A DNA stretch of 47,502 nucleotides from IMG/VR virus record IMGVR_UViG_3300025671_000107, positions 1 through 47,502 of that record; one strand, 5' to 3'. How positions within the stretch are numbered: position 1 is the stretch's first letter; the number at the start of each line of letters is the position of its first letter. The translations under genes and the position numbers were made by a program. The notes under the pieces were generated by a model, which saw only the letters and a program-made list of their open reading frames with translations, did no database searches and was not told the origin of the DNA. This stretch comes from a virus. This document shows positions 3,981-46,041 of the stretch, one piece after another.

Positions 3981-4005
3981 AAATCAACGAATTAAATCAA
4001 ATCAA

Positions 4006-4341: not shown

Positions 4342-4342
4342 C

Positions 4343-16128: not shown

Positions 16129-16156
16129 AGAGGGGACTTCGGTCCCCTTTCTTTTT
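16129..16156 (+). terminator. Intrinsic terminator of the early block
   Basis: The 7-bp stem AGGGGAC (16131-16137) and GTCCCCT (16142-16148) with a TTCG tetraloop is followed by TTTCTTTTT on the plus strand. On the minus strand the hairpin has no downstream T-run, so it should stop rightward transcription only. It overlaps the stop codon of the convergent minus-strand gene at 16155. Confidence 0.85.
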
Positions 16157-26320: not shown

Positions 26321-26328
26321 CAAATATA
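26321..26328 (-). promoter_or_regulatory. TAnnTTTG late promoter box
   Basis: TATATTTG on the minus strand ends 4 bases before ATG 26316, in the 20-base gap between two late genes. No TTG is present at the -33 distance, so it is weaker than the 1079 promoter. Confidence 0.55.
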
Positions 26329-30200: not shown

Positions 30201-33200
30201 GTGAAGACAGGCTGTTGAAGTCCGAGAAGGTCACAGAGGAATCTCTGCGAATCTCCTTTTGGAATCGGTTCATTACCTTGGGGCGCCCGTAATCATATTG
30301 GTCCGCACCAGAGATAACGTCTGTAAACGTCTTGCTTTCAACATAGTAGTCCAAAAACTTGGGGCTGCTAGTGCCTACATCCCTAATAAGGTTTAGGAAT
30401 CTCTCCTGCTGTACGTTGTACGAAGGCATGGCTAGTGCAGTTCGTCTAAACCACACGTCACCGTTCTGAAGAACAATCTGGTTGTTCTCCCAGCTGGGCA
30501 CCCCACCATCTCTAATCACGTTGTACTTGCGAGAGATCTCGTAGTAGACCCTGTTCTCAATATCCTGATTGTTGATAGGGCTGTAGATCTCAAAGACGCA
30601 TCTGTTGTTCCACAGGTGAGCGTTAGAGGCAGAAGGGGAGGTGCCGTTACCGCTTTGAGCTGACTTCACATAGTCAAACGAGAATCCAGTTGCGCTGGGG
30701 TTGTCTCTCAAAACCAAGAACTGACCAACCTTCGAGGGGATGGCTGGAGGGTTGTCTTGGTTGATAAGCGGGTTGTCCTCGTCATCAGCAAGGTTGACCA
30801 GACCGACTACATCAAACTCATATGCAGTGGGGTACACCCTGTTAGACTGGTTCGAGTAATAAGAGATGATCCGCAGCTTGTCACCCTCCTTGTAGTTGTA
30901 CAGGTCCTTGGTTCCAATTGTAGATACAGCCCCGAAAGACTCAGCGTAAGACACGTCTCTGTTCTCCTGAAGGTAGTTGAGGGAAACGTAGATGTTTCCG
31001 TTCGTTCCTTCGTTGGCGTGCTCAATGAACGCCCCACCAGCAGTGTACTGAATGAAGTCATCAACAGTGCTGTTGCCTCCGTAAACGATTTGATAGTGCC
31101 ATGCCCACGACGGGGGAGAGCTGTTCAAGTTGACTTGAATGCTTACTGGCCCCTGAGCAACTCCGTTATCGTACCCGTCAACATACGTACTCCCCAGAGG
31201 CACCACGTCGGTGGATCTACCTCTCTGGTCGTAGAACACGATGCCGAAGTCGTGAGTGGCCTTTGTCTTAAAGGACCTGCTAGCAGTGCTGCCCGTGTTG
31301 GGAGGAACAGTTATAGCATCAAATGAGGTTACCTCAACGATTGCAGACTCTCTTTCGAGGATGGGGTCGTCAGCATCAGCAGCAGCTGAGTCCGACCACA
31401 TGTCAATCGACGTAACAGCATTCTGATCATTTGGGACGAAGAGCAACGGCATGTTCCAGCTAGACTGACCCATAGCGTCCTTGAAAACTGAAGACTCAAA
31501 AGACCCGATGAATGGTGCGTATCCCATAACGATACACTTGTGGGTAACACTTCCAAAGTCAAGGCCTTTGTAGTTAACTCCTGCAAGTTCGCCAGAGTCC
31601 TTCCCGCTTGCTCCAGCCTCTCCGTCAAGTGTAGAGAATGCAAACTGGAAGAAAGCGTCTTCACGTTGGATGATCTCAATATCATCAAACTCTTGAGCAT
31701 CAGCAGCGAACCTGCTGAATGTATGAATCAGTGCTTGTTCTCCACTGTATGCAAATGAGAACACCCCATCAAGTCTCTCAACTTGAGTCCGTGTTGTTCC
31801 TGCGGGGATGAGACCACCAAACCACCTTTTGATTTGAGTGACGTCAATCTCATCCTCAAGAGTCCCATAGATGCCGTTAAGTTCAACTGAATCAATCAAT
31901 GGGTCCAATCCACTAACGATGAATGCGGCTTGAGAGCCGAGGTGAGTGAACATACCCCCAGCACCTGTTGCACCTAGCTCTGGGGCGCTAAGATCCCCAA
32001 GCTCAAACTGAATGAAATCAGGAGTCAAGCATACCCATCCGTCAAAGATGTTTCCAAACTGGAGATCAAGTTCACCGCCTTGGGCATTAGTCAAAAAGAC
32101 GTCAGCCCAGTTGGAAATTCTATCGCCCACCCCTTCGCTCATATCCACATCGGGGATGCAAGTGAAGATCTCTGGGTTCTGGATGTCGACCAAGTCAAGA
32201 GCAAAGAATGAATTGTCCTGATTGCCATACTCGGACAAGGCGTACTGATCAGAGATATCTCTAAGTGTAAAGCTTGGTGTGGCCTTGTTCACAATAAAGA
32301 AACCGCATGGCTGCACGCCCCTTGAATCAGCAGCCTCGATTGCACTGTAGTCACCGACAGCATTGATCAGCTTAGTCCTGTAGTCGGGAGACCCGAAGAC
32401 ATTCAGCTTATCCTTGTTGGAGATGTTCAAGTCGATGTCGTACTGAGCAACGTTGTTTACAGAGATGGTGTCGATCAGAGGGATAGAAACGGGGTTTCCG
32501 TTAACTACTTGAGAATCAAACAAAGACGAGTCTCCTCTGAGATAGTTGCCAGTGAGGAGGTCTCTGATAATCAGAGATAGTCTCTCACGTGAGATGTCGA
32601 GCAATGTGCTGAATGAAGCGCCGAACTCAAGTGGTCTCCCCTGAATGATGAATGGGTTGTGTGCCGAAGTACCGTAAGTAACATCGATCTCACCTTCATT
32701 CGTGAACGCAGGAGCCCAACGAGGCATAGCTTCGTCGATAGAGTTTGCCGTTCTGTATGGAATCTCTGCAATAGACCGTCTTTTAAGACCAGACGTTTGC
32801 TCTGCTACAGAAGGAAGGTCGATACCACCTCCCTGAAGACTAGGGAAGAACGAAGCTCCTCCAGCAGCCATGCCAACAGTCTCATTTCCCATGTCAATGA
32901 AGAGACCCTGATGCTCAACCGATTGAGCGATGTGGCCCTCGGTACCATCACCGAGCTTGGTGAGCTGAGCACTTCCGTGGTAGCTGTTGCGTGACTCGTA
33001 GAAGTGGAAGTTATTGTCTGGGCTTACGTTCAGGTTGAAGATAACCTGAGTGCCAGCGGCAATGCTGTCAGGCAGTCCAGATGTATCCAGCTTGTATGCA
33101 GAAACCCTGTTGTGGGGAGAGGTGTCATCCGTAGAGTCGTTGACCTGTCTGATCTCTGGAATAACTTCCAGCTGAAGGGAGATAAAGTCGGTAGGTCTCT

Positions 33201-34284
33201 CAGCAAATCCGTGATTGATAGTAGCGTCAACATCGGGTACGTCGAACCCCTCAACGTAGTTTGCGTAGAAGAGTCGGTTATTGGTGATGTCTTGGGTGCG
33301 TGCCTTCTTGGGGACCGCATCAAAGTGGCGACGAGTCTCCCCAACAGGAAGAGCCGTGTAGATCTCATCGTTGTAGAACTTAGAAGAGACACTGCCTCCG
33401 CTGTAGTCTACCTCGTCTGCAATCAGCCACGCACCTGTGTTGCCGCTTCTTACCAAGATTCTAACGCGAGACACCTCTGAGGTGAATGCGTTATCTGGGA
33501 TGTTGAGCTGGATGTAGTTCTCAGAGAAGAAGTTAGGGTTGGGCTGAGCACCCTGATTCAAGTAGGCAGATGGAACCGCCAGAGTAGAGTAAGTGCTGAG
33601 CGCACTCACGTCTCCAGACTTATATACGTTCTGGTATGCAAACTGAAATCCCCTCTCCCCCTTGAAGTTGCTGACCTTGTAGGTCGGATCGTTCTGGAAG
33701 CTCCACTGAGGTGGGTCAACAGGAGTTCTAGGGCAGACAGAAACAAAGTCCAAGAACTGCAAACCAGATCCAGCTTCGGAAGCTCTCTGGACATCAATCT
33801 TCTTCGGCTCCGTATGGTTGTCAGTGAAGAACAGGATGGGCTTCAAGTCGGTCCCCCCAACCACTGAGTTAGGGATATACACCACGTTGCCGTCAACGTA
33901 AGAGTTGCCCCTAAAGTTGAACAGCTCAGATGAGAGCAACTTCTGCAGGTTGTTGCCCGAAGTGTCGTAGAAGTAAACACCTGACTGTGAGCCATTTGGG
34001 CTGTACACAAAGTAGTAGATGCGGCCAGCACGCTCGTCGTTGCAGCTTCCGATAACCTTAGACCCAGTGGCAAGGCCGTGATCGGTAAGGTTTGTCACAG
34101 CCGAGTTGCCCTTGACTGGCTTCAAGACGCCGAAGTTTCCAGTGGCTGTTTCTACGCCTGAGGAGAACTCTCCATTGTTGTCGTCAATAGTTACGTTGAC
34201 CGCATCCAGCATCTCATCCTGCTGGTGTAAACGTGTATCCTTGCTCGAATTGAGTCTTCTGGGAAATACTTTATCTATTGCCAT
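27280..34284 (-). CDS. Giant nozzle/muzzle-like tail protein with EF-hand
   Basis: 2334 residues. The first ~1530 residues are beta-rich and start with KVFPRRLNSSKDTRLHQQDE and GEFSSGVETATGNFGVLKP, resembling the tail nozzle (beta-propeller) proteins of podoviruses and crAss-like muzzle proteins. A Glu-run linker (GEGEEEEGGDG, about 1550) leads to an 800-residue helical domain. It carries a canonical 12-residue EF-hand loop, DENEDGQIDLSE, at 1995-2006. Normal nozzles lack this helical extension, so the gene may be a fusion of nozzle and fibre- or plug-like parts. TAATG links it to the connector gene upstream. Confidence 0.7.
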   Translation of the reverse strand: MAIDKVFPRRLNSSKDTRLHQQDEMLDAVNVTIDDNNGEFSSGVETATGNFGVLKPVKGNSAVTNLTDHGLATGSKVIGSCNDERAGRIYYFVYSPNGSQSGVYFYDTSGNNLQKLLSSELFNFRGNSYVDGNVVYIPNSVVGGTDLKPILFFTDNHTEPKKIDVQRASEAGSGLQFLDFVSVCPRTPVDPPQWSFQNDPTYKVSNFKGERGFQFAYQNVYKSGDVSALSTYSTLAVPSAYLNQGAQPNPNFFSENYIQLNIPDNAFTSEVSRVRILVRSGNTGAWLIADEVDYSGGSVSSKFYNDEIYTALPVGETRRHFDAVPKKARTQDITNNRLFYANYVEGFDVPDVDATINHGFAERPTDFISLQLEVIPEIRQVNDSTDDTSPHNRVSAYKLDTSGLPDSIAAGTQVIFNLNVSPDNNFHFYESRNSYHGSAQLTKLGDGTEGHIAQSVEHQGLFIDMGNETVGMAAGGASFFPSLQGGGIDLPSVAEQTSGLKRRSIAEIPYRTANSIDEAMPRWAPAFTNEGEIDVTYGTSAHNPFIIQGRPLEFGASFSTLLDISRERLSLIIRDLLTGNYLRGDSSLFDSQVVNGNPVSIPLIDTISVNNVAQYDIDLNISNKDKLNVFGSPDYRTKLINAVGDYSAIEAADSRGVQPCGFFIVNKATPSFTLRDISDQYALSEYGNQDNSFFALDLVDIQNPEIFTCIPDVDMSEGVGDRISNWADVFLTNAQGGELDLQFGNIFDGWVCLTPDFIQFELGDLSAPELGATGAGGMFTHLGSQAAFIVSGLDPLIDSVELNGIYGTLEDEIDVTQIKRWFGGLIPAGTTRTQVERLDGVFSFAYSGEQALIHTFSRFAADAQEFDDIEIIQREDAFFQFAFSTLDGEAGASGKDSGELAGVNYKGLDFGSVTHKCIVMGYAPFIGSFESSVFKDAMGQSSWNMPLLFVPNDQNAVTSIDMWSDSAAADADDPILERESAIVEVTSFDAITVPPNTGSTASRSFKTKATHDFGIVFYDQRGRSTDVVPLGSTYVDGYDNGVAQGPVSIQVNLNSSPPSWAWHYQIVYGGNSTVDDFIQYTAGGAFIEHANEGTNGNIYVSLNYLQENRDVSYAESFGAVSTIGTKDLYNYKEGDKLRIISYYSNQSNRVYPTAYEFDVVGLVNLADDEDNPLINQDNPPAIPSKVGQFLVLRDNPSATGFSFDYVKSAQSGNGTSPSASNAHLWNNRCVFEIYSPINNQDIENRVYYEISRKYNVIRDGGVPSWENNQIVLQNGDVWFRRTALAMPSYNVQQERFLNLIRDVGTSSPKFLDYYVESKTFTDVISGADQYDYGRPKVMNRFQKEIRRDSSVTFSDFNSLSSPVLRYTTFDATTSNFKDLPNKHGQISKIVDFGDSIFVLNEEKVSALPIARSVISDLTGQELIVASEKVIGTQSFYAGDNGCSTNPESVAKVGESLYFANKEKQEVYKFNPANGVQIISEKGMKSYFRELFQSAIDSSLNSGQVRVVGGYDPILDEYVLSVYNAVTLSFSGDVEVLQESGSTVQDDPVNPTNGEGEEEEGGDGVVGPVIDQDVLDALEEQNEILLGQVGSLYDAIVNVINEEGAPSVDELTVELTTFVDNLDSEITGFEDAISSLTGGEVTVNALNEFVGLLEGSLNDNEATITGQLSSASASHEQIRDSLNTSALQMTVAIGQATTNISEDASIAVPLQANHFPNIAPAGANVSKEDFLELMLAYHGQAQANAGLFNEDQGSYSLRSGGAFTDYKIGFGIPTTNSLNDDDPSSDIPIGSAIYENPSFISDMSAFLNAMDLILSTSGAQVTTSLSSTISAVSADKNDILTQISQVVSAIYNTQAANQGGGSVTRLFGINYNGVSESVIESLYNASNEGLTQLEDTLNSYTTDLESLVSANLEDGIQNYKDTQFESLITSQSANIASLEVTRDALLTQAFNGLNATYNLAGKPDVVNQIPAPIAGLLNEIGVDSVPSAATILNAFDENEDGQIDLSEIVFASEIVAEFTADLESVFGAVEPVADALRGPITTFLNATANTVGEFGGFDTSEGSNTDILQGWMTKLESGTDQDVIDVINAFSNVLNESGTGVSVAEGIRNLQSVLSDAKQKFLDFSGLYADDFEGFNEANDFAKGLVFEASNEYPFGANIAGLLSIVDSSENAVARVVQFQRFLGRYEGGETSSTGTYLGEIEFEGLGPDALTPADFFSSYNTTYYQGEPNFPQGFRQTGMSLLVGLHNAISDMRAIVQQPLDSFSGSGFGPEENPSGTIWNFENFQLTNTLEDYVGADIYSIAVEDVEAAFAAANALTGTLNSSLGGTFTVTPSS

Positions 34285-35135
34285 TAGTACTTAGGTGCCT
34301 GCTTGAAGTTCTTTCTAATCGTTCTCAATGCCTCTTCTCTGGTGAAGTTGCTTAGACGTGCCTTAGCCTTGCGGCGCTCGTTGTAGTACTCTGAGCGGGC
34401 ACGCATCTTCTCGTTTGCAGGTACCGTTGACTTTCTTTCGCACAACTTGTAGTAGATGTAAGCACGAAGAGCCTCCTCTGCGTACACGTGGATCAATGGG
34501 TTGGAGCTGCGAGCTTCGTCTGCAACGTACTCAATGACCACCTTGGTGATGTCGCTGCTTGTATCGATCTCCAGTCTGTTCTGGTCAAGGTTGATCCTGT
34601 ACTCACCCATACCGTGACCACCACCGATTCCATACAACCCACCGAGATTGTTCTCGTAGATGTAGTTTCTGAACACGTAAGACTCAAACGGATCTCCGTT
34701 GTCTACGTCGCCGTTGGTTGACGTCTTGTCGTCGAGTCGGTTCTCTACTTCATTCTGCTCAAGGTACATGGGGCCTTCCTTGTCATCAACAGGGGTGGTG
34801 GTTCCGCTAACCTTGCGAGAGTAGTTGATGTTCTTGTTTTGGTTCAGGACATACACAACACCATCAGCACCAACGATACCAACCTTCACGAGGTCAACGT
34901 AGTCTGACGGGAGCTGTACCGTATTGTTCGAGTCAATGTCTCTCTTCAGGGACTTGATGCGAGCAGTCACATCAAACCCAAACTCTCGGATACCTCGGAG
35001 AGCTACGTTGCGAAGCATTGCGTCATTGATGTTTGAGATGTGATCATCCACATCCATGGTCAAGACAAAGTCATCCATCACCTGTCGTAAGGTGACGTAG
35101 TTCATTCCCTCGGTAGATATATCCTTAAATGCCAT
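34284..35135 (-). CDS. Head-tail connector/ring protein
   Basis: 283 residues. The N-terminus LRQVMDDFVLTMDVDDHISN, then RGIREFGFDVTARIKSLKRD and VQLPSDYVDLVKVGI, is typical of the tail-tube/adaptor proteins (T7 gp11-like, crAss ring proteins) that bind under the portal. A helical C-terminus (AEEALRAYIYYKLCERK) follows. Its position between a second connector and the nozzle gene fits the order portal-adaptor-nozzle. Confidence 0.7.
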   Translation of the reverse strand: MAFKDISTEGMNYVTLRQVMDDFVLTMDVDDHISNINDAMLRNVALRGIREFGFDVTARIKSLKRDIDSNNTVQLPSDYVDLVKVGIVGADGVVYVLNQNKNINYSRKVSGTTTPVDDKEGPMYLEQNEVENRLDDKTSTNGDVDNGDPFESYVFRNYIYENNLGGLYGIGGGHGMGEYRINLDQNRLEIDTSSDITKVVIEYVADEARSSNPLIHVYAEEALRAYIYYKLCERKSTVPANEKMRARSEYYNERRKAKARLSNFTREEALRTIRKNFKQAPKY

Positions 35136-35138
35136 GTG

Positions 35139-35882
35139 TTATTGTTGTGAAGCGCCGTAGCTCATCAGAACGTTGTCCCTGAGGGATACTCCGATCATCA
35201 TACAGATCTCTTTAACAACCTCGTCTCTGAACTCAGCAGGCAGGTCAAAGGCCCTGCAGTCAAATGGGTTGGGGATCACAAGAGACCCTGAGGTCTGAGC
35301 TGAATAAGAAGGCTGTCTCCTGTAGTCAATTTCGCCTGCCGCAAAGCGTGCACCTGCAGTCTCGTAGCGAGAGGTGGGGTTGCGGTAGTAGTTGATGTAT
35401 ACGTCTGAGCCGGGGCGTGGGAAGATCTCAATCTCAGACGAAACCAATCCAACGGGGAAGTCATCCGTAGGAGCAGACAGGTTGCTATTGAGGATACGGG
35501 AAATCTTTTCACTGTTATAAATCAAGTCCACGTTCACGCTGTCGTCGTTGAACACAGAGATGATTCGGTTCAGGTTCTCGGGCTTTTTGTAGACGCCTGA
35601 GTCATCGTAGATGGACGGGATGTTTACCTGCTGAAGAATCCCAGAAGAGATGTACTCAGAGATAAAGTTCTTGGCCTTTAGGTACAGAGAGTCCTCCCCG
35701 CCTAGGTCCGCACCGCTTCTTCTCAAGGCCTTGCCCTGAAGTGCGGCATCGTAGATCTTGCCAAAAATCTTAGACTGGACAGCAGGCAGGAGAGAGTTAA
35801 ACATCTCTGGGCTCACAAATCCCTTCTGGTCCTTGTTGGCTAAATCGCGTACTGCATTGTATACTTCAATGACGCTAATCAT
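35139..35882 (-). CDS. Adaptor/ring protein of the connector
   Basis: 247 residues, starting at ATG 35882 because the promoter box TATATTTG ends 4 bases before it. An ATG 15 bases upstream lies inside that box. The N-terminus SVIEVYNAVRDLANKDQKGF followed by SPEMFNSLL is a familiar opening of Bacteroidota phage adaptor proteins. FPRPGSDVYINYYRNPT and ALRDEVVKEI-like helices (LPAEFRDEVVKEICMMIGV) also fit that family. It would sit between the portal and the nozzle. Confidence 0.7.
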   Translation of the reverse strand: MISVIEVYNAVRDLANKDQKGFVSPEMFNSLLPAVQSKIFGKIYDAALQGKALRRSGADLGGEDSLYLKAKNFISEYISSGILQQVNIPSIYDDSGVYKKPENLNRIISVFNDDSVNVDLIYNSEKISRILNSNLSAPTDDFPVGLVSSEIEIFPRPGSDVYINYYRNPTSRYETAGARFAAGEIDYRRQPSYSAQTSGSLVIPNPFDCRAFDLPAEFRDEVVKEICMMIGVSLRDNVLMSYGASQQ

Positions 35883-35886
35883 GCAA

Positions 35887-35926
35887 CAAATATACAAACA
35901 AAAAAAGAGGCCCCGAAGGGCCTCTC
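35887..35926 (-). promoter_or_regulatory. Fused terminator-promoter cassette
   Basis: A terminator hairpin, AGAGGCCC/GGGCCTCT with a CGAA (plus-strand) loop (35906-35925), is followed on the minus strand by a T-run. GTTTG and the -7 box TATATTTG (35894-35887) come next. The hairpin loop, TTCG on the minus strand, falls 19 bases upstream of the box, at the -33 place. The box is 4 bases from ATG 35882. The cassette ends transcription from the gene at 35929 and restarts it for the adaptor gene. Confidence 0.75.
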
Positions 35927-35928
35927 TG

Positions 35929-36765
35929 TTAACCGAGCTTCTCTAGCCTATCCTCTAGAGTAGCTAAAACAGCTGCCCCCTTTTCTGTAAGACAGAATCG
36001 AGTCATGACATCCGTCGCGTCCATACCCGCTGGAACAGACACGATCAGCTGGTTGCTGTCAAACCAGTATACTCCACTAGACTTCAGATTAATGATCTGA
36101 TAGTCAGCAGCTTGAGACACAGTTGCGCGAACTGTTACTTCAGGTGAATCGAAGGCTTGAATGAAACCAGATGGATTCTTCTTCGCAGTCTGCAAAAGAT
36201 CGTAACGAATCTCTGAAGTGGCTCTGTTGATGTTGATGCCGTAGTAGAGGGCCACAGGAAGCAGTTCCTGAATGTCCTTCTCGCGAACCATCATGATGGC
36301 TTCTGACTGAGAGAACTCACGAGCAAGCTCCTTTTCGGCGTCTTGTTTGTCGTCCACGAGGCGGAAGAGGCTACCTCCGTTCTCCACGTTGTCGGGGTGA
36401 GCATCGAGGAAACGTGCAAGGTTTGGCTTCTCCTTGGGGACGAGGAGGCGTCCGTTGCGGAAGATCACGGGCTCACGCACTGCGTTGTCACTCTGGTCCT
36501 CAACGAAGATTGAGTTCTCGCGGGGGCAGTAACGAATGTTGCGGATTCGGTTCTCTGATTCGTCAAAGATCTGCACGGACTTCTGCTTGAGCATCAGCAC
36601 GATACCGCCTCCCTTTTGAATCTCGTAGATTCGGTTGGTGGGTTTTACCTCCTTCTGACGAATGGTGGGTTTCTTGGCGGGTGCCGCCTTAACCTTTGGT
36701 TCTGCCACAGCAGTGGGCGCTGATTTTTTAGGACGTCCAGCACGTCGCGTAGCTTGTTCAGCCAT
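35929..36765 (-). CDS. Hypothetical structural protein with AT-hook-like N-terminus
   Basis: 278 residues. The N-terminus has RRAGRPKKSAPTAV, where GRPKK resembles an AT-hook, followed by Ala/Pro/Lys-rich sequence. The body includes GGGIVLMLKQKSVQIFDESE, LARFLDAHPDN and a C-terminal domain with GMDATDVMTRFCLTEKG. It lies among head genes, is isolated by a terminator on its downstream side, and may contact packaged DNA. Function unknown. Confidence 0.65.
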   Translation of the reverse strand: MAEQATRRAGRPKKSAPTAVAEPKVKAAPAKKPTIRQKEVKPTNRIYEIQKGGGIVLMLKQKSVQIFDESENRIRNIRYCPRENSIFVEDQSDNAVREPVIFRNGRLLVPKEKPNLARFLDAHPDNVENGGSLFRLVDDKQDAEKELAREFSQSEAIMMVREKDIQELLPVALYYGININRATSEIRYDLLQTAKKNPSGFIQAFDSPEVTVRATVSQAADYQIINLKSSGVYWFDSNQLIVSVPAGMDATDVMTRFCLTEKGAAVLATLEDRLEKLG

Positions 36766-36767
36766 AA

Positions 36768-36775
36768 CAAATGTA
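36768..36775 (-). promoter_or_regulatory. TAnnTTTG late promoter box
   Basis: TACATTTG on the minus strand ends 2 bases before ATG 36765 and follows the motif TAATTAAA, also found before the scaffold gene. No clear -33 element is present. Confidence 0.45.
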
Positions 36776-36780
36776 TTTAA

Positions 36781-37995
36781 TTAGAGTGAATAAAGGTCGT
36801 AAAGTTCTTTCGCAATTCGCTGAGCCTCAACAGATCCGATATCTCTACTGATAACTCCGAAGCGTCCAAGCCTTCCACTGAAGGAGTGAGTGGTGTTCTC
36901 GTTGGCAGACCCAATGTGAGTCAAGTCCAAGGTACCCGTAGTTGACCCGTTCTTGACGTTTTGAGTGCCCTCAGCGGGCTCATCGGTTACTGCAGGTATG
37001 ATCGCCAACAGATTTCCGTCAGCGTTGTATACAGACACGTTAAAATCCTCATCTCTTCTGATGACGAGTACACATGGTGTGATCTCATCTAAGCTCACAA
37101 GAGTTTCGGTGATAGCCGCCTCCCCATATCTATCCTGATATGAGATGCCGATCTTGTTCTCGATATTAGACTTGATGTTGTCTACCCTACTGGCAATACC
37201 GACTCCTCCACTAGAGTCACCAGCATCAACACCGTAGATAATCGGTGCTTCCTTGGTCGTTGCCGAATTGCCATTCGAGTACACCATGTACATTGTGTAA
37301 TCACCATAAATGGTTAGGCTGTTAGCCAGAGAGATGTACGAGTCTACAGAAAAGAAGGCTGTATTGATTCCTGTAGAAAAACCTGATTTTACGGTTCCAG
37401 TGAGCTGAGTCACACTTCCCGTGACGCTGCTGAAGTTATAGTCAGACCCCCCAGTTCCTGCATTTACCCAAGCAGAGATGTTACCACCGCCTCCTCCAAA
37501 TACCGCATCCCTTGAATCCAAATCAAGAATCGGTTTGTTTTCGGCAGCCCCAAAGTTGATGTCATTGATCGTATTCGAGGATGCCGCAGTAAAGCCATTG
37601 TCTGTAATCACACTGGTCTTACCAGTGACTCTGTTTACAGGGTGGGCATGCAACACCGCGTTTATAAGTCCTTGATCCTCAGCATCAAAGACTAATGCTT
37701 TGCTTCCTTCTCGCAGTCCAGCGAAGTTGGAGATGCTTTCGATGGTGGTGAACTCTTCACCTACTTCACAGCTAATGGTGACGTACGACTTCTGAATAGA
37801 CTCACCTGTACTTAGGTTGCTTTCGTCGTATCTAGAAACATCGTTGTAGAAGATGCTAACCCTACCTGAAGAGGCGGTCATATGAGAAATAGACTTCACT
37901 GGGAGTGAAATAATCTCAATGCCAGTACCATCATCTGAGACGCTAGCTCCCGCAGCAGTAACGTCTTTCAATTTAAATATGATGAACTTATCCAT
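36781..37995 (-). CDS. Head decoration or fibre protein with lectin-like domain
   Basis: 404 residues. The first 90 residues are a separate beta domain (MDKFIIFKLKDVTAAGASVS). The remainder reads like a concanavalin/LamG fold (FGGGGGNISAWVNAGTGGSD; YGDYTMYMVYSNGNS; HSFSGRLGRFGVISRD), ending in a short helix (RIAKELYDLYSL). It resembles the C-terminal part of the protein at 43269. The gene lies in its own transcription unit between capsid genes, so a capsid-surface adhesion protein is likely (inference). Confidence 0.6.
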   Translation of the reverse strand: MDKFIIFKLKDVTAAGASVSDDGTGIEIISLPVKSISHMTASSGRVSIFYNDVSRYDESNLSTGESIQKSYVTISCEVGEEFTTIESISNFAGLREGSKALVFDAEDQGLINAVLHAHPVNRVTGKTSVITDNGFTAASSNTINDINFGAAENKPILDLDSRDAVFGGGGGNISAWVNAGTGGSDYNFSSVTGSVTQLTGTVKSGFSTGINTAFFSVDSYISLANSLTIYGDYTMYMVYSNGNSATTKEAPIIYGVDAGDSSGGVGIASRVDNIKSNIENKIGISYQDRYGEAAITETLVSLDEITPCVLVIRRDEDFNVSVYNADGNLLAIIPAVTDEPAEGTQNVKNGSTTGTLDLTHIGSANENTTHSFSGRLGRFGVISRDIGSVEAQRIAKELYDLYSL

Positions 37996-38000
37996 TGACG

Positions 38001-38040
38001 CAAATATACAAACAAAAAAGAGGCCACAAAGGGCCTCTTT
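38001..38040 (-). promoter_or_regulatory. Fused terminator-promoter cassette
   Basis: Minus strand: a GAGGCC/GGCCTC hairpin with A/T extension (38017-38040), a six-T run, GTTTG, and then TATATTTG (38008-38001). The hairpin loop contains TTTG (38030-38027) exactly 18 bases upstream of the -7 box, so the loop itself is the -33 element. The box is 5 bases from ATG 37995. It is nearly the same module as at 35887-35926. Confidence 0.8.
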
Positions 38041-38060
38041 CTTTCGTAATAGATCAAGTA

Positions 38061-38375
38061 TTAGGCAACAGTAACGTTCAAGCTACCAACCAATCTCCAT
38101 CCAGAATCACCAACCCACATGAACTCAGCGTAGTTTCCAATAGCTGCAGCAATGGCAGCAGTGGATCCGTCCGCGAAAGTTGAAGGAGTGATGGTTGCGA
38201 TACCAGCAGCATCATCCAAGATGACCTTTTTGAGCTGACCGACTTTAGAGCCATCAGCGAGAGTGATCGCAACAGCACCGCCAGCAGTCAACTCAGTGAC
38301 GTAAGCGTCCACAGAAACGGCACCAGCGCCAGACTTGGTCTCTCTGATTTTATCGGGAATCAAAGGAAAAATCAT
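38061..38375 (-). CDS. Small capsid decoration-like beta protein
   Basis: 104 residues, beta-rich, with VAITLADGSKVGQLKKVILD and ATITPSTFADGSTAA, a repeat style seen in decoration and fibre-tip domains of phages. It sits directly after the capsid gene, is bounded by terminators on both sides, and is likely made in large amounts. No enzymatic site is present. Confidence 0.6.
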   Translation of the reverse strand: MIFPLIPDKIRETKSGAGAVSVDAYVTELTAGGAVAITLADGSKVGQLKKVILDDAAGIATITPSTFADGSTAAIAAAIGNYAEFMWVGDSGWRLVGSLNVTVA

Positions 38376-38379
38376 GTTT

Positions 38380-38416
38380 CAAAAGTTTAGGACTAAGAGA
38401 AGGGGCCGAAGCCCCC
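38380..38416 (-). promoter_or_regulatory. Terminator-promoter cassette after capsid gene
   Basis: Minus strand: a GGGGC-TTCG-GCCCC hairpin (38415-38402), then a pyrimidine tract CTTCTCTT, then AACTTTTG (38387-38380), a one-mismatch form of TAnnTTTG, ending 4 bases before ATG 38375. The TTCG loop is 19 bases upstream of the box. The T-run is weak, so termination is probably partial. Confidence 0.6.
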
Positions 38417-38436
38417 TCTCCTTCGTCTAGTTAGAA

Positions 38437-39843
38437 TCAGTACTTGAGCAACACGTGTTGGTTAGCAGCGCGAGTCACCAACGCGATCTCAGAGCGGTAG
38501 TGGAACGTAGCCACGTCCTTACCGTCTCCGCCGTTGTTGTTGTGACCCAGCACACCGCCACCAGTCACCCAGTGCTCCATCTCACGAGAGTAACCGTTAG
38601 CCTCCTTGTAGCAGAGCTCCAAAGCAGGTGCCTTCACACCAGTACGAGCATCAGCAATGTTGGCCAATGGCACCATAGCACCAGTGTAACCGCCAGTAGT
38701 AACGCCACCCAACAAGGTAGGATCGTTCAACAGCTTCCAGTCGTGCTTGTGGAAAGTGTAACCACCGCGAGTGAAGCTCTTGAATCCGAGCTGGACAGCC
38801 ATGTCAGCATCGTTGTTGAACGCACCGAACTGACCGGGCAAACCAGCAGTGAGTTGCGTTCCGATACCTGCAGCCAACATGTCATCGATAGCCAAAGACT
38901 GAGTTCTGTTCAAGTACATAGCGTACTCGGCAGGAGCACCCTGCTTGTCGAGCTCAACCAAGATGGTGTCGAATTCAGTGAAGCTGTTCAAAGGATCAGC
39001 GCCAGTACCAGTCACCTGCATACCGCGAGCCTCCAAAGCAGAGAAGTAACCCTCAGAGCCAGCAACGTCAGACAAAGCACCGCCTCCGTCGTTGATCTCA
39101 CCGAAGAGCAACATCATTTCACGACGATCCATGAAGCGCTTACGAGCTTCCTGCTCACCGTGCATGAACCAACGGTAGTCACCGTTTCCAATGTTCACGT
39201 AGCCGATGTTGGTAGCTTGTGATCCGTTCACTTCGTAACGGTCCTTCACGATCATGTATGGGTTCTTGCGACGCTCGGGCTCAGTCTCCAAGAAGGTCTC
39301 AGGCTGGTTGCTGCCCTGTGGGTGCATGTTGCCCAAGATGATGAACTCATCGTTAGCAGAGATAGTCACAGTGATGCTTTCACCGTCGAGGGTAGAGATG
39401 TTGAAGGTGCTTCTGTCAGAAGCAACGGTGTCAACGATGAACTTGTTGCCAGACTCTGCGTGCATCAACACGTCGTACTTGTTAGGGGTCTGCTCAACGG
39501 TGCTCACAGGATCCACAGACAAGCTGTCAGCAGAAGAAGCAGAAGAGAAAGATGCACCAGTCTCGACCACCAACTTCACGTGGCGACGACCTTCTTCGAA
39601 CCACTCGACTTGGTCGGCAGAACCACCGCTGTTCACAGCGCCAGTCAACTGAAGGAAGCCAGTGATACCCTGATCGCCGTAGGTCTTGACCAAGAGGTCA
39701 CGGACGTCAGGCTTGTTGAAGTCACCGTTTTGAGTGAGGAAATCGCCCAGAGCTTGATATTTTCTGGGGTCTGTTGCGAAGGCGCTAGGAGAGCCGTCGA
39801 TTACGGGAGCATCAGTCCCGCGAGTTGAACCAAGAGTAGCCAT
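38437..39843 (-). CDS. Major capsid protein
   Basis: 468 residues, the most probable HK97-fold capsid protein. The N-terminal arm is Gly/Ser-rich (MATLGSTRGTDAPVIDGSPS). The E-loop-like middle and helical spine are represented by GDYRWFMHGEQEARKRFMDR and REMMLLFGEINDGGGALSD. The C-terminal part HVLLKY is hydrophobic. A scaffold gene lies immediately upstream and decoration genes downstream. The MCP gene ends at a terminator-promoter cassette. The identification rests on these features and on remembered similarity to Bacteroidota phage capsids. Confidence 0.75.
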   Translation of the reverse strand: MATLGSTRGTDAPVIDGSPSAFATDPRKYQALGDFLTQNGDFNKPDVRDLLVKTYGDQGITGFLQLTGAVNSGGSADQVEWFEEGRRHVKLVVETGASFSSASSADSLSVDPVSTVEQTPNKYDVLMHAESGNKFIVDTVASDRSTFNISTLDGESITVTISANDEFIILGNMHPQGSNQPETFLETEPERRKNPYMIVKDRYEVNGSQATNIGYVNIGNGDYRWFMHGEQEARKRFMDRREMMLLFGEINDGGGALSDVAGSEGYFSALEARGMQVTGTGADPLNSFTEFDTILVELDKQGAPAEYAMYLNRTQSLAIDDMLAAGIGTQLTAGLPGQFGAFNNDADMAVQLGFKSFTRGGYTFHKHDWKLLNDPTLLGGVTTGGYTGAMVPLANIADARTGVKAPALELCYKEANGYSREMEHWVTGGGVLGHNNNGGDGKDVATFHYRSEIALVTRAANQHVLLKY

Positions 39844-39851
39844 GGTATAGC

Positions 39852-40976
39852 TTAGATTTTAAATCTCATCCCTGAGCCGCCGAGCATGATTTGTTTTAGT
39901 TGATCGACGACGGGATCAGAAGTGTTGTTAATGTTTTGCTGTTGTGGGGCGCTAGCCTGAACGTTGGCAGCTTTTTCTACCAAACCCCGCTGACCATCAC
40001 TCAGGCCCTGTCTGTAGATAGACTGAGCAATCTGATCAATGTTGTCAACCAAGGCTCTGTGAGAAGAGAGCGTGTCAATGTCCCAACTACCGTCATCCCG
40101 AATGTAAGGGTCGAAGTACTCGTCGAGACGAGCGTTCTTATCCTTGAGTTGAGACTTGTAGTCGTCTTGCAAGCCAAACGTGAAAGTCTTGTCCTGACCC
40201 AGATCGAATTCCAATCCAGTCAGTGAGTCGACCTCACGAGACATGTTCGCGATCCACTCGTCATCAACGATGGACTGAGGCTGTTGATCTTGTTGCTGGG
40301 GCTCTGGGGCGCGGTAGGTCTCTCTCAGATCCGTAATGCGCTTACGAGACTCAGCAGCGTCAATCTTCAGCTGCAGTTGTGAAAGCTTGATCTCATCCTC
40401 CGTGTGAACGTCGGGATCGAGCTTGTATTTGCTGTTCAAGAGAATGTCGATCTCCTGTCCGCTAAGGTCCTTGTACTCCGTAGCCATGCTCACGCGAACC
40501 GCCATAACGTCATCCATCTCAGATGGGTTAAGGGATTGGTATGTGAACCAGTCTTGAGGAGAACGTCCAGTCTCTTGAACGAACTTAGAGATAGCTTCGA
40601 CTCTCTCGTCGAGCGGGGTGGAGGGCTCAGTGACAGGCGTCAAGTCGTCGAAAGAAGTGATTTCGCGTCCAAGCCTCTCGCTCAGAAAGCTCATCACAGC
40701 ACCCTCGATGTCTTGGTCGCTGTAGTCTTGAGTCTCCGTTGGTCGCTCCTGCGATTCAGGAGCGTTATCAACTATAGTTTCTTGAATCGGTTCGGCGGAT
40801 GGCGCCTCAGTATCAACGACCGACTCCTGAACTGGAGCCTCTGGTGTTTCTACTGGTGCTTCCTGTGCGGGAGCTTCTGCGACCTGAGGTTCAGACTGAG
40901 CCATGCTAGCCTGAAATTCCGACGCATCATTGAAGATCTCGAACGTACCGCCTTCTGTTGGATTGTTATCCTCCAT
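39852..40976 (-). CDS. Capsid scaffold protein
   Basis: 374 residues. The first 90 residues are a Glu/Pro/Ala/Gln-rich low-complexity region (APAQEAPVETPEAPVQESVV). A long acidic helical body follows (LSQLQLKIDAAESRKRITDL). The C-terminal end is short (KQIMLGGSGMRFKI). Its composition and place, 8 bases upstream of the capsid gene, fit a scaffold that guides shell assembly. No protease is recognised in the window, so how it leaves the shell is unknown. Confidence 0.65.
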   Translation of the reverse strand: MEDNNPTEGGTFEIFNDASEFQASMAQSEPQVAEAPAQEAPVETPEAPVQESVVDTEAPSAEPIQETIVDNAPESQERPTETQDYSDQDIEGAVMSFLSERLGREITSFDDLTPVTEPSTPLDERVEAISKFVQETGRSPQDWFTYQSLNPSEMDDVMAVRVSMATEYKDLSGQEIDILLNSKYKLDPDVHTEDEIKLSQLQLKIDAAESRKRITDLRETYRAPEPQQQDQQPQSIVDDEWIANMSREVDSLTGLEFDLGQDKTFTFGLQDDYKSQLKDKNARLDEYFDPYIRDDGSWDIDTLSSHRALVDNIDQIAQSIYRQGLSDGQRGLVEKAANVQASAPQQQNINNTSDPVVDQLKQIMLGGSGMRFKI

Positions 40977-41002
40977 TGTATTTAATTAAGGGTGTTTGTT
41001 CG

Positions 41003-41338
41003 TTACGCTGGGCCGTAGTAGGCGATGATAGAGCCTGAGGCAATATCAACGGTATCCCACTTGCCGTAGATGGTGATGCCTTTTGGGAAGACGTCAGCAG
41101 AAGTGACGAGGTCGCCAGTAGCGTCGAAGTCATTGTCTACTCCATCAGACCCAAAGATCTGCTTGTTGTTCACCGCCTGAAGGTCACGGAATGTAGTGTC
41201 CTCCAAGCAAGTGATAGCAACGAAAGCATATCCGCTAGGACACGTCAGGTCCTGCGCGGTGGTGGTGTTACAAAAGCAAGAACCAAGCTGCCCGAAAGCA
41301 GCCTGATTCGCTTCACCTGTGTTAGAAAGGTTTGCCAT
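41003..41338 (-). CDS. Hypothetical small structural protein, Cys-containing
   Basis: 111 residues from ATG 41338. An upstream in-frame start would overlap the preceding gene by about 50 bases. It begins MANLSNTGEANQAAFGQLGS and has CFC near residue 23 and further Cys. The C-terminal half is beta-rich (PKGITIYGKWDTVDIASGSI). It lies between scaffold and the paralogous pair and is probably a minor head or baseplate protein (inference). Confidence 0.6.
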   Translation of the reverse strand: MANLSNTGEANQAAFGQLGSCFCNTTTAQDLTCPSGYAFVAITCLEDTTFRDLQAVNNKQIFGSDGVDNDFDATGDLVTSADVFPKGITIYGKWDTVDIASGSIIAYYGPA

Positions 41339-41339
41339 T

Positions 41340-41747
41340 TTATGTGAGTTTAACTGCTGAGCTATCCAAACCGAAGACCGCACACTCAACCATCTGGTCG
41401 ACGTCAGTGGAGTAAGCCTTCATGGTCTGATCGTTCTGAGCAGGGATAAACGCGAATTCTCCGCCACCAATCTTCATGACTACTGGATCGTCAGTGGCTG
41501 TTTCGGCATACAAGTACACATACTTCTCCTTGTCCTTGGACAGGTTCTTGATGTACAGGTAGGCGTTTTCGAGCTTATCGCTTGCCTTGTAGACAGTGAT
41601 AGCATCTGAGCCAGCAGCAGTGCCAAGAATCTTGACGCGCTGGACATTGCCAGAGTCAGCATTGATGATCATGTTCACCCCGATGTTAATCGGTGATGTC
41701 ATGACCGTGGTGGTAGAGAGACTAAGTGTAGCTCTTACCGTACCCAT
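41340..41747 (-). CDS. Beta-rich structural protein, paralogue A
   Basis: 135 residues. It shares order and motifs with its upstream neighbour: TLSLSTTTVMTS near the start, then YLYIKNLSKDKEKYVYLYAE and GGGEFAFIPAQ. The neighbour has YIKNISSTASEYITVKVGA and AGDFLFMPWSA in the same place. A tandem duplication is therefore likely. Probable capsid-surface or minor virion protein. Confidence 0.6.
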   Translation of the reverse strand: MGTVRATLSLSTTTVMTSPINIGVNMIINADSGNVQRVKILGTAAGSDAITVYKASDKLENAYLYIKNLSKDKEKYVYLYAETATDDPVVMKIGGGEFAFIPAQNDQTMKAYSTDVDQMVECAVFGLDSSAVKLT

Positions 41748-42157
41748 TATGCTTCGTAGATAACGAGGTATTCAACAGTCATGTTGACTGCAGATGTGTC
41801 GATGTCGATGTCTGCGTTGTCGCCAGTGGTGTCTGCACTCCAAGGCATGAACAAGAAGTCACCTGCATACAAGCGTCCGACCTCAGTAGCACCGACCTTG
41901 ACGGTGATGTACTCAGAAGCGGTTGATGAGATGTTCTTGATGTAGACCTTGTGAGCCTTGTCATCGGAGTAGTCCGCTGCGAGGATCAGAGCTGTGTCAG
42001 TCTGAGCAGACGCATAGAACTTTCGTGCAACGCCCGTAGTCTGATCGAGACCAGTAGCGTTACCAGCCTTGGTGAGCTGAGTGGTGGTGCTCAGAGAGAG
42101 AGCATCGCCAGTCAAGTCTCCACTCGAAAGCGTGAGGGTTGCTGTTGTAGTAGCCAT
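41747..42157 (-). CDS. Beta-rich structural protein, paralogue B
   Basis: 136 residues. It begins MATTTATLTLSSGDLTGDAL and shows the aligned blocks described for paralogue A at the same spacing. A -7 box TATATTTG (42185-42192) lies about 27 bases upstream of the start, so this gene probably begins its own mRNA with a short leader. Confidence 0.6.
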   Translation of the reverse strand: MATTTATLTLSSGDLTGDALSLSTTTQLTKAGNATGLDQTTGVARKFYASAQTDTALILAADYSDDKAHKVYIKNISSTASEYITVKVGATEVGRLYAGDFLFMPWSADTTGDNADIDIDTSAVNMTVEYLVIYEA

Positions 42158-42184
42158 GTTAGTAGTAAGTGGTTTTTAGTATTG

Positions 42185-42192
42185 CAAATATA
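42185..42192 (-). promoter_or_regulatory. TAnnTTTG late promoter box with leader
   Basis: TATATTTG on the minus strand is preceded by an A-rich stretch (AAAAAGAAAAAG) and lies 27 bases before ATG 42157. It is the one late box here with a real leader instead of an immediate start. Confidence 0.55.
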
Positions 42193-42399
42193 TCACTTTT
42201 TCTTTTTGTCTGCTCTGATCTTCGCGGCCTCCTTTTTACCGAACGGGGAATTCACTCTAGCGGCAGCCCACTCGTGTTGAGTGACGTTAGGCCTGTTACC
42301 AGAACTCATGTATGCGGCAAGACCTCTCTTGTATACTTCCTTCTCGGCGGCATCAAGACCAGCCATGCCTCCCTTATTCAGTTTCTTAACTGCTCTCAT
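42193..42399 (-). CDS. Small basic late protein, 68 residues
   Basis: Lys-rich C-terminus (KEAAKIRADKKKK) and an N-terminus MRAVKKLNKGGMAGLDAAEK, carrying the recurrent K...GG motif. The ATGA overlap with the upstream gene is shown by ATG 42399. Probably nucleic-acid binding. Function unknown. Confidence 0.65.
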   Translation of the reverse strand: MRAVKKLNKGGMAGLDAAEKEVYKRGLAAYMSSGNRPNVTQHEWAAARVNSPFGKKEAAKIRADKKKK

Positions 42400-42542
42400 A
42401 ATTTATCTCTTTCTTTCATTAGAGCCTGCAAGTTCTTTGGGTATGGCTTACCCTTCTTGTAGATCTCTGCGATCTTGCGAATGAGCTCTGCTCTACGAGT
42501 AGGGTTCTTGCTGCCCCTAAGGTATTTCTTGTTGATATTCAT
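42396..42542 (-). CDS. Small basic late protein, 48 residues
   Basis: Starts at ATG 42542, overlapping the upstream stop as ATGA, and ends in ATGA with the next gene. It is basic (KKYLRGSKNPTRRAELIRKI; IYKKGKPYPKNLQALMKE). The exact overlaps at both ends support a real gene despite its size. Function unknown. Confidence 0.6.
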   Translation of the reverse strand: MNINKKYLRGSKNPTRRAELIRKIAEIYKKGKPYPKNLQALMKERDKL

Positions 42543-42724
42543 GAGTGGTTGACGAGCTTGAACTTAGCCTTGGCAATTGCCTTATCGTGAGGCTTGTAGT
42601 CTCCCTTCATCAAGAAGTATCTACCACCCTCCTGCATCCAATGGTACCCAGATGGAGGCGGTACCTCGACCGACTTCTGAGAGATCTTGAGCTTGCCCCC
42701 CTTGTTGTACTTAACGGTGTTCAT
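42539..42724 (-). CDS. Small late protein with VKYNKGG N-terminus
   Basis: 61 residues from ATG 42724, which overlaps the stop of the upstream gene (ATGA). It has MNTVKYNKGGKLKISQ, then PPSGYHWMQEGGRYFLMKGD. It shares the K-Y-x-x-GG motif with other late proteins. Function unknown. Confidence 0.6.
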   Translation of the reverse strand: MNTVKYNKGGKLKISQKSVEVPPPSGYHWMQEGGRYFLMKGDYKPHDKAIAKAKFKLVNHS

Positions 42725-43032
42725 CACCACTTAACCTTATTGGCCCAGTAGGCTGCGCTCATCTTACCCTTGGCAATGTTCTTTGCGTGACGGGCCTTGA
42801 ATGAAGCGCGTTTCTTTTTCATCTTGGAGCCCTCACCAGCCTTAGGCTTGCCCGCTGTCTTAGCACCCTGCTCCCCAAAGCGAATCAGCTTGACCTTGTC
42901 ACCAACCTTAGCCAACACGATGTGTGACTTCTTCGGGTGCTTGGGTGTACGCTTTGCTTTGTTGACACCAGCCAATCCATACTTCTTGAGCATGTTCTTG
43001 ACTCTCTTCCCTACTGCGCTTGGAGATCCCAT
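42724..43032 (-). CDS. Small basic phage protein, DUF6321-like
   Basis: 102 residues, very basic. The block VKLIRFGEQGAKTAGKPKAG followed by KKKRASFKARHAKNI and AAYWANKVKW is recalled as a conserved phage family (DUF6321), frequent in Bacteroidota phages and without known function. The promoter box TATATTTG ends 4 bases before ATG 43032. Confidence 0.7.
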   Translation of the reverse strand: MGSPSAVGKRVKNMLKKYGLAGVNKAKRTPKHPKKSHIVLAKVGDKVKLIRFGEQGAKTAGKPKAGEGSKMKKKRASFKARHAKNIAKGKMSAAYWANKVKW

Positions 43033-43036
43033 GATG

Positions 43037-43044
43037 CAAATATA
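43037..43044 (-). promoter_or_regulatory. TAnnTTTG late promoter box
   Basis: TATATTTG on the minus strand ends 4 bases before ATG 43032, in the short gap between two late genes. No clear -33 element was found. Confidence 0.55.
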
Positions 43045-43269
43045 TCAAATATCAGAAGAGTACTCCATTAGGTTCCCGTGGCGTAAGTCATCAAGCTTAT
43101 CAGCGTCTGAGATAGAGTCATCTGTGTAGAACGATACCGACGGAATGTTGCCTGCTTTGGCCCACGTCACCGCTCCTGACTCGGTCTCGAAGTATTCTTC
43201 AATACCAGACATCCTGATCACATACCCAGCCGTGATCTTGTTGCCAGTATCTGTTGCAGTCTTTGCCAT
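43045..43269 (-). CDS. Hypothetical late protein, 74 residues
   Basis: Starts at ATG 43269, overlapping the upstream stop (TAATG). Acidic protein with GYVIRMSGIEEYFETESGAV and SFYTDDSISDADKLDDL. It lies next to the lectin-like fibre and may be a small fibre accessory. Function unknown. Confidence 0.6.
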   Translation of the reverse strand: MAKTATDTGNKITAGYVIRMSGIEEYFETESGAVTWAKAGNIPSVSFYTDDSISDADKLDDLRHGNLMEYSSDI

Positions 43270-44216
43270 TAGAATACAGAGTAGTGATTGTTTATATCTG
43301 TCATTACGTTCGCTCTAGTTGGCATCGTGTCAGACCAAATAATTAACTCGGATACGTAGCCTTGAAGTTGTGCGTTTCCGTTATCTGACCTCCTGCCAAT
43401 AGCAGCCTTTAAGCTACCGTTATTGATAGTACCAGAGCTAGGGTAGCCTGTGTCTGTATCTGCTTTGTCACCGTTGAAATCAATATCACCTTCATAAGGT
43501 GAGGCAGAGACATAGGCGTTTATGATGTATTCATCATTGACAGATATTGTCGTGTTGCTGTCGCTCCTTCCAAGCTCTCCACCACTATATCTTGCAGAGA
43601 TTCTAAGCTTGGATGACGCACCCAATACGCTAAGCTGAGTGACCTGAGTCGATGTTGAAGAAGACCACTGGCTAAATACTTGTTGTGCAGTGGTCACAGA
43701 CTTAAACTCAGTAACTGCTGAGATAAGCAACTCATCACCGTTGTTAGAGACAAACGTATTCTCCAACCATCTTGCAGTAGAGCCAAAGTAAAAATCAAGC
43801 GCTGGGATTGAGTTGTCTGTGGTGGTAATTAGGTTTCCAGAACCGTCAACAATGTAGGGCCTTGACCCTGCCGTAGACTGAGTCATGTTGTTCCCGTTTC
43901 CAGATTGATCCAGCCAAGTCGAAATCCTGCCGTAGTTGCTGCCGCAGTGGGATGCAAGGGCTGCTGTGTCTAGGTTCCCACTCGAATCAAACCCAATAGT
44001 AGCGAAACCTCCTGATGAGTTTTCTACAACGATAGCCCCAGTAGCCGAAGAAGACAGCTTTCGAAGGCTGTAAGCAGCTACTGATCCACTATAAGTGTCC
44101 AAGAAGTAATCAACTGGAACACTAGAACCAGACACCTTCGATATGCTGTCTTTAAGCACACCATCTACTTTGCTAAGACTAGTCCAAGAAACTCCAGAAA
44201 GCTTGTCTATGCTCAT
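43269..44216 (-). CDS. Fibre-associated lectin-like protein
   Basis: 315 residues. The region AAYSLRKLSSSATGAIVVE, then ISTWLDQSGNGNNMTQST and SRPYIVDGSGN, matches a module resembling arabinofuranosidase-B/concanavalin-like folds, common in marine phage tail proteins. The C-terminus (YVSELIIWSDTMPTRANVMT) resembles LamG ends. A carbohydrate-binding receptor function is likely (inference). It is linked by ATGA to the collagen-like fibre gene. Confidence 0.65.
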   Translation of the reverse strand: MSIDKLSGVSWTSLSKVDGVLKDSISKVSGSSVPVDYFLDTYSGSVAAYSLRKLSSSATGAIVVENSSGGFATIGFDSSGNLDTAALASHCGSNYGRISTWLDQSGNGNNMTQSTAGSRPYIVDGSGNLITTTDNSIPALDFYFGSTARWLENTFVSNNGDELLISAVTEFKSVTTAQQVFSQWSSSTSTQVTQLSVLGASSKLRISARYSGGELGRSDSNTTISVNDEYIINAYVSASPYEGDIDFNGDKADTDTGYPSSGTINNGSLKAAIGRRSDNGNAQLQGYVSELIIWSDTMPTRANVMTDINNHYSVF

Positions 44217-45604: not shown

Positions 45605-46041
45605 TACGCATCGATGGCTTCAGAGATGTCCTCGTTCACCACAAACGAACCAAACAGGATTGTCTTGTGGATATCCAATCCGCCAGTAGTGCTTGGCTTG
45701 ATGTACTGGATGTCGTAAGAGTACTTACCCGAAGCAATGGACCGCATCGTCAAAGCCGAAGCCTGAATGGTTGCGTTACCGCTGTCATCCACAGAAACTG
45801 GTTCAAAGTTGTTGGCAGCCTTGACACCCACGTCCGATGTGCCGAGGATGAGTCCACCCTTACCAGTTTCGTTAGGCAAGAGGTTCTCTCTCACCTGAAC
45901 AATGAATCGGTAGTTGTCGGTAGCCAAAGGGAGTGCCGTACCCGCAGAGTCCTTGAGAGTGACTGTGAGCGTGAAGGTGTCACCACGCTTGCACGTGATG
46001 TCCAGTCTAGTAGATTCGTCGAGGTTTACTTTACTCGCCAT
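45604..46041 (-). CDS. Fibre-base protein, BppU-like
   Basis: 145 residues, beta-sandwich-like: RLDITCKRGDTFTLTVTLKD at the N-terminus and GKYSYDIQYIKPS near the C-terminus. The opening recalls the BppU-type domain that anchors receptor-binding proteins to the tail. It follows the portal directly, overlapping by one base. A promoter box with a 4-base gap to its ATG lies in the end of the portal gene. Confidence 0.6.
   Translation of the reverse strand: MASKVNLDESTRLDITCKRGDTFTLTVTLKDSAGTALPLATDNYRFIVQVRENLLPNETGKGGLILGTSDVGVKAANNFEPVSVDDSGNATIQASALTMRSIASGKYSYDIQYIKPSTTGGLDIHKTILFGSFVVNEDISEAIDA

Follow-up and report, generated by a model that had tools for sequence, protein, structure and literature searches.

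Which signals end one message and begin the next in the late genes of this virus, and does one hairpin loop serve both purposes? The locus lies in a 47.5-kb virus record (the whole stretch of DNA analyzed, hereafter the window), in which the capsid-side genes are on the minus strand and hairpins stand directly upstream of promoter-like boxes and start codons. A preliminary description of this DNA proposed three promoters of this kind, in each of which the loop of a terminator hairpin would double as the -33 element. At two of these sites, A and B (Table 1), the elements are probably fused terminator-promoters through which the late block, made up of structural genes, would be transcribed in short units, a reading drawn from the sequence. 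For the upstream message, a GC hairpin with a stable tetraloop would fold and the transcript would be released within the T-tract. A host promoter of the sigma-A type would use this T-rich stretch as its AT-rich spacer, around -18, and the one element clearly available for recognition would be the extended -7 box TATATTTGY, 18-20 bases past the loop. The ATG often lies exactly 4 bases past the box, at the start point of the flavobacterial polymerase, so that we predict a following mRNA with no leader or hardly any. The hairpin loop would belong to the RNA structure and would not serve as a -33 box.

At about 30% identity, the capsid product resembles structural proteins of Flavobacterium elemo phages in culture. 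It matches 85 phage records, including 68 from Flavobacterium and 15 from Cellulophaga. A scan of IMG/VR identified 305 stretches encoding a capsid relative, and the best 80 of the 305 were kept as loci L003-L082 for comparison. The capsid encoded in L003-L005 is identical to that of the window, and L003 represents the window's own phage. For the gene that module A would start, no match was obtained in PHROG at E 0.001 or in Pfam at E 0.1. Elsewhere in the window, on the plus strand, there is a GIY-YIG homing endonuclease-like gene (5985-6986; Pfam PF01541, PHROG 314).

Table 1. Genes, candidate module parts, other boxes and the post-capsid element in the window
Feature	Position	Strand	Remarks
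Capsid gene	38437..39843	-	PHROG 13704, virion structural protein, head and packaging
Gene with predicted transcription from module A	36781..37995	-	404 aa
Virion structural protein predicted to be started by module B	35139..35882	-	PHROG 14543
Gene whose transcript the module A hairpin would end (predicted)	38061-38375	-	
Gene whose transcript the module B hairpin would end (predicted)	35929-36765	-	
Terminator-type hairpin, module A	38014..38043	-	Loop CTTTGT at 38026-38031; counterparts family-wide
T-rich stretch TTTTTTGTTTG, common to terminator U-tract and promoter spacer, module A	38009..38019	-	
-7 box TATATTTG, module A	38001..38008	-	18 bases past TTTG; ATG 37995 5 bases on
Terminator-type hairpin, module B	35904..35927	-	Loop TTCG at 35914-35917; orthologous site in relatives
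-7 box TATATTTG, module B	35887..35894	-	19 bases past loop; leaderless start predicted at ATG 35882, 4 bases on
Hairpinless TATATTTG box	26321..26328	-	ATG 26316 4 bases on
Hairpinless TATATTTG box	43037..43044	-	ATG 43032 4 bases on
Hairpinless TATATTTG box, leadered class	42185..42192	-	ATG 42157 27 bases on
Conserved structured RNA element	38373..38433	-	After capsid stop codon; loop 38407-38410, outer helix; no T-tract

In the terminator scans, sites A and B each showed a GC-rich hairpin of the sense RNA with a T-tract directly 3' of the stem, and both sites match the -7 box TANNTTTG of Bacteroidota sigma-A promoters. The stem of module A is GAGGCC/GGCCTC plus flanking A/T pairs, and its loop includes TTTG. 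All the parts previously described at 38001-38040 are present (hairpin, TTTG loop, 18-base spacing, TATATTTG, and an ATG 5 bases on), as are those at 35887-35926 (TTCG loop, 19 bases to TATATTTG, and ATG 35882 4 bases on). The window has five copies of TATATTTG, each of them on the minus strand, against an expectation of 0.57, and four of the five lie 4-5 bases upstream of an ORF's ATG; the looser TANNTTTG is not enriched in the window (12 copies vs 17.7 expected). The combination of a terminator with TATATTTG 16-21 bases past its loop was found twice in the window and in none of 100 dinucleotide shuffles. Promoters of the E. coli sigma-70 type were considered as a candidate and rejected (6 in 30000-47502 vs 15.9 expected in shuffles). 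The sole Rfam match at E 1 in the window's 34000-44000 region was Atu_C8 (35891-35985), which overlies site B and scores 23.4 bits, where 50 are needed.

Hairpinless boxes are also recurrent among the relatives. In the orthologs of gene 42157, 49 of 60 distinct upstream sequences contain a hairpinless TANNTTTG box, and one more has the box with a hairpin; many of these boxes are located directly 3' of lysine-rich gene ends. In the window, TACATTTG at 36768-36775 (minus strand), 2 bases upstream of ATG 36765, is a possible further near-leaderless start.

After removal of near-identical boxes, the 80 loci contain 198 distinct TATATTTG boxes, and 77 of these have a terminator hairpin and T-tract directly upstream. 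The distance from loop to box is 18 (n = 26), 19 (n = 33), or 20 bases (n = 12) in 71 of the 77 modules, counts that are not independent because the phages share descent, and it is 16, 17, 21 or 32 in the remaining six. The preliminary description had called for aligning related phages across this interval, and in such a comparison the hairpin-to-box spacing is indeed conserved. The clearest exceptions to 18-20 are on the contigs of L073 (box at 7897, spacing 32; same contig as L177) and L174 (module at 5005-5044), where some 12-13 additional bases separate the T-tract from the box. Sense-strand terminator-like hairpins are followed by TANNTTTG in 88 of 97 cases, and two of the other nine have TATATTTA at that place. 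The 48 distinct sequences that precede orthologs of gene 35882 comprise 38 with hairpin and box, seven with the box only, and three with a hairpin and TATATTTA. The box-only sites (L013 10667, L032 10721, L043 10140, L051 11454 and three more) retain both the T-rich stretch and the box, with the ATG still 4 bases on; the hairpin is thus dispensable, as 7 of 48 orthologous sites are without it. The cultured phages agree with this picture of a terminator followed by a box at a fixed short distance as a conserved module: two modules (19 and 21 bases) were found in the stretch of Elemovirus examined, and one module each, at 19 bases, in the stretches of Callevirus phi38:1 and Calle_1. The modules of phi38:1 and of the elemo phage belong to the leadered class, their ATGs being 19-25 bases past the box. 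No module was found in the examined stretch of Baltivirus phi13:2, and the phi38:1 terminator after structural gene 3928-5268, at the capsid position, has no TANNTTTG.

An open-gap scan, in which 0-30 bases (31 possible spacings) were allowed between GGGGCCTTTTT and TATATTTG, was used for viral contigs and prokaryote genomes. Viral contigs gave 95 open-gap matches for the first stem, GGGGCCTTTTT, and 81 of these have a spacing of 7-9. For the second stem, 41 of 95 were at 8-9, several of them being chance matches without a hairpin, and the others were scattered. When the box was reversed, the first stem matched 8 stretches. Among the matches listed for prokaryote genomes (at least 117), 12/117 were at 7-9, which is about an even share with no peak. 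Because 81/95 viral matches fall at 7-9 as against this share among the prokaryote matches listed, the fixed spacing is real. It is almost entirely confined to the window's clade, a group of marine bacteriophages, and does not characterize hosts in general.

Across the family, positions in the module stems vary from GC to CG and AT, and G.U pairs outnumber A.C pairs by 114 to 22 when both are allowed on equal terms. The covariation of the stem and the excess of G.U over A.C therefore indicate a hairpin under selection as sense-strand RNA, and the latter argues against a DNA palindrome without an RNA role. A virion RNA polymerase or N4-like hairpin promoter was also set aside, as the stems are those of sense RNA with T-tracts; among the proteins scanned, a part of the window's ORFs, there was no match to an RNA polymerase or sigma factor. 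The T-rich stretch begins about 13 bases upstream of the box and consists of two blocks, at -13 to -9 and -7 to -3 relative to the box, the second of which falls, in our own alignment, on the -18 region that is AT-rich in flavobacterial promoters. At offsets 8-10 past the stem, 73 phage terminators have a T content of 0.70-0.84, compared with 0.57 for the 47 terminators of a host control that is small and selected. The host control was drawn from 36 Bacteroidota loci picked by title from 80 pattern-selected loci, the box counts of which were left unused.

According to the preliminary description, the loop is coupled to the -33 position and doubles as the -33 box of the sigma factor, so that folding and promoter recognition would compete. 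The position of the loop near -33 is conserved, but its sequence is not. TTTG is contained in only 3 of the 77 loops, whereas TTCG accounts for 32, GAAA for 10, TACG for 7 and TGCG for 4 (43 UNCG loops in total). Tetraloops of the UNCG and GNRA types are known for their stability in RNA, and the modules with GAAA loops hold a spacing of 18-19, as tight as those with UNCG loops. Among 72 deduplicated hairpinless boxes, TTTG is found at spacers 17-23 in none and at 24 in two; among 37 deduplicated boxes with a hairpin, it is found at 17-23 in one, and it is present at site A. The seven box-only sites of the gene 35882 orthologs likewise have no TTTG at the -33 position. TTCG loops are also present, with no promoter box, in the window's two other terminator-like hairpins that have loops of their own (16137 on the plus strand and 41297 on the minus strand). 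The first of these loops, at 16137-16142, sits between the ends of the plus-strand gene block and the minus-strand late block. Moreover, folding of the upstream RNA does not block a promoter in duplex DNA. TTTG at -33 is the B. fragilis consensus, as cited in PMC7366714; in the F. johnsoniae promoters described in PMC6847099, the -33 motif is much less evident than the AT-rich -18 and -28 motifs.

A loop acting as the -33 box would fit the exact TTTG at an 18-base spacer in site A and at 19 bases in L040 and L041. It would also fit the loop-to-box distance, which is tighter (SD 0.93, n = 76; 1.15 after deduplication, n = 28) than the distance from T-tract to box (1.15; 1.26 deduplicated). Arm length and tract length are anticorrelated (rho -0.55; deduplicated -0.41, p 0.03), with the module of spacing 32 left out of this correlation. 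The tighter loop distance may have arisen because the sequences changed by substitution and not by indels, or it may answer some positional need. The Callevirus loops are TTT and CTTT, then G. Altogether we consider a -33 function of the loop very unlikely.

The predicted start of the next message can be compared with the F. johnsoniae promoters of PMC6847099, in which many start sites are 4 or 5 nt past the -7 element and the -18 region is AT-rich. The ATG is exactly 4 bases past the box for 39 of 73 hairpin boxes with an ORF-opening ATG and for 32 of 111 hairpinless ones. In this class, after deduplication, the base before the ATG is a pyrimidine at 18/18 hairpin and 23/24 hairpinless sites, the fraction being 0.48 among 366 control starts. 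An A at -3 is found in 0.22 of the hairpin sites (n = 18) and in 0.75 of the hairpinless sites (n = 24). A at -3 is a flavobacterial translation signal; its rarity in the hairpin class is as expected for leaderless messages, but it is common in the hairpinless class. For leadered genes, the fraction with a pyrimidine-purine step at the predicted start was 0.53 for boxes with a hairpin (n = 15) and only 0.30 for those without one (n = 47), with no clear signal. As the A-3 and pyrimidine-purine results are mixed, the leaderless start is put forward only as a prediction, being the simplest reading of the 4-base distance between box and ATG. The low frequency of leaderless mRNAs in the hosts' phylum counts against it: they make up 5.5% in F. 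psychrophilum (PMC9723704), and 5'UTRs under 10 nt about 3.7% in B. thetaiotaomicron (PMC7366714).

The same sharp 4-base distance would be accounted for if TATATTTG near the ATG were a translation signal and not a promoter. However, the box is also found 15-31 bases upstream of the ATG in other genes, it fits the host -7 consensus (PMC6847099), and its place directly after terminators is one that calls for a new start; this explanation is extremely unlikely. Plain packing and descent, by which terminators and promoters were squeezed into small intergenic gaps and the spacing was inherited but is not functionally required, is unlikely in our view. It would be consistent with the distribution of the modules, since 78 of the 80 module loci of one scan (first-stem spacing 7-9) encode relatives of the window's structural proteins, and the anticorrelation of arm and tract could come from substitution-only change. 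On the other hand, the 18-20 bases are kept between elements whose stems, loops and flanks vary greatly, and the distance from stop codon to loop varies (SD 8.9, in two clusters, vs 1.8). In addition, the T-rich filling reaches the box, as judged from offsets 8-10 and the small selected control above, and Elemovirus, despite a capsid only about 30% identical, and Callevirus keep 19-21.

The polymerase might instead stay on the DNA after release and restart at the promoter beneath it, coupling successive structural genes. Release happens some 7-8 bases into a T-tract, and with the tract starting about 13 bases upstream, the enzyme would be left about 5 bases from the -7 box. Retention of bacterial RNA polymerase, sliding, and restart after intrinsic termination have been shown in vitro (PMC6978380, PMC6978322), and the latter paper proposed sense coupling at promoters near terminators. 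Yet post-termination sliding spans long distances, so that a tight spacing would be unneeded, and restart as described in PMC6978322 is usually in the reverse direction; we regard such a relay as quite unlikely. Slightly more doubtful again is its extension to a clade-wide hand-over device, in which the terminator would park the polymerase on the fused promoter and restart at the AUG would yield a leaderless message for each late unit.

The proposed fused terminator-promoters combine features of several known systems. As in intrinsic terminators with UNCG or GNRA tetraloops, there is a GC stem with a stable tetraloop and a T-tract, but in the modules the T-rich stretch goes on, its second block reaching as far as the -7 box. 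The late promoters of phage phiKZ have elements that overlap start codons. They also resemble the modules in being very short elements at the start site (TATG with the start at G), although phiKZ uses a phage multisubunit RNA polymerase and the modules a host -7 consensus (PMC5312081). In the T7-type capsid unit of LUZ100, structural genes are similarly punctuated by terminators and local promoters, with a local promoter and a strong terminator right after the capsid gene; according to the same account, however, these local promoters are specific for the phage RNA polymerase, whereas the modules have a host-type -7 box fused to the terminator (PMC10134795). The promoter half resembles Bacteroidota sigma-A (sigma-ABfr) promoters as described in PMC6847099, where TATATTTG fits the -7 TANNTTTG, the start is often 4-5 nt on, and -18 is AT-rich. 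In contrast to these promoters, the modules are fused to a terminator at fixed spacing, lack a -33 element, have a GC 3' arm replacing the AT-rich -28 region, and in many cases have the ATG at the expected start. In the parts of the open-access literature on flavophages and on tandem or recycling terminators that were covered, no description of the fused module was found. The parts are known, and the new variation on them is their fusion at a fixed distance, with predicted starts close to the ATG, which a phage clade has conserved. Such a module would offer a compact natural terminator-promoter part for Bacteroidota, it leads one to expect a group of phage messages without leaders in a phylum where such messages are few, and it provides a natural substrate for asking whether polymerase restarts in the sense direction after termination.

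The third promoter of the preliminary description, at 38380-38416, did not stand alongside sites A and B. A hairpin with a TTCG loop is followed there by AACTTTTG, 19 bases past the loop and 4 upstream of ATG 38375. This box is imperfect, one base off TANNTTTG, a point that the description did not mention; no T-tract follows the stem, and neither terminator scan of the window picked the site up. A hairpin after the capsid stop codon was found in 33 of 64 distinct loci, with contig-end loci L020, L031 and L080 left out and L051 dropped as a spurious fold. One more, L025, was missed in the fold set by its ATG rule and recovered by the covariance model alone. None of the 33 has TANNTTTG at the hairpin. 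The relatives thus keep the hairpin without the box, the very outcome by which the description itself would have given the module up. At least five T in the 8 nt past the inner stem were present in 2 of the 33 (the window's phage has 2 T).

Judged by these comparisons, the hairpin is part of a separate conserved RNA element and not of a terminator-promoter module, so that in about half of the distinct relatives examined the capsid gene is followed by such an element. In an alignment of 20 post-capsid sequences, 7 of 13 predicted pairs changed on both sides, all of them within the stem of the inner hairpin, which has a tetraloop. The outer helix hardly varies in this alignment, and in folds of more distant loci, including that of the window's phage, it pairs other letters. 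A covariance model gave 33 hits across 52 sources, 31 of them directly 3' of the capsid gene; 19 of the 33 belong to the model itself and match by construction, and 14 lie outside it. The window's element is among those outside the model and scores 43.1 bits (rough E 6e-6). No Rfam match reached the gathering score in the window, L010, L024, L046, L057, L083 or L084. With low confidence, we would guess at a role as an mRNA 3'-end or processing element. TTTG is present 3-6 bases upstream of the ATG in 6 of the 33 post-capsid sites, and there may be a weak promoter at this site in a few phages, that of the window included.
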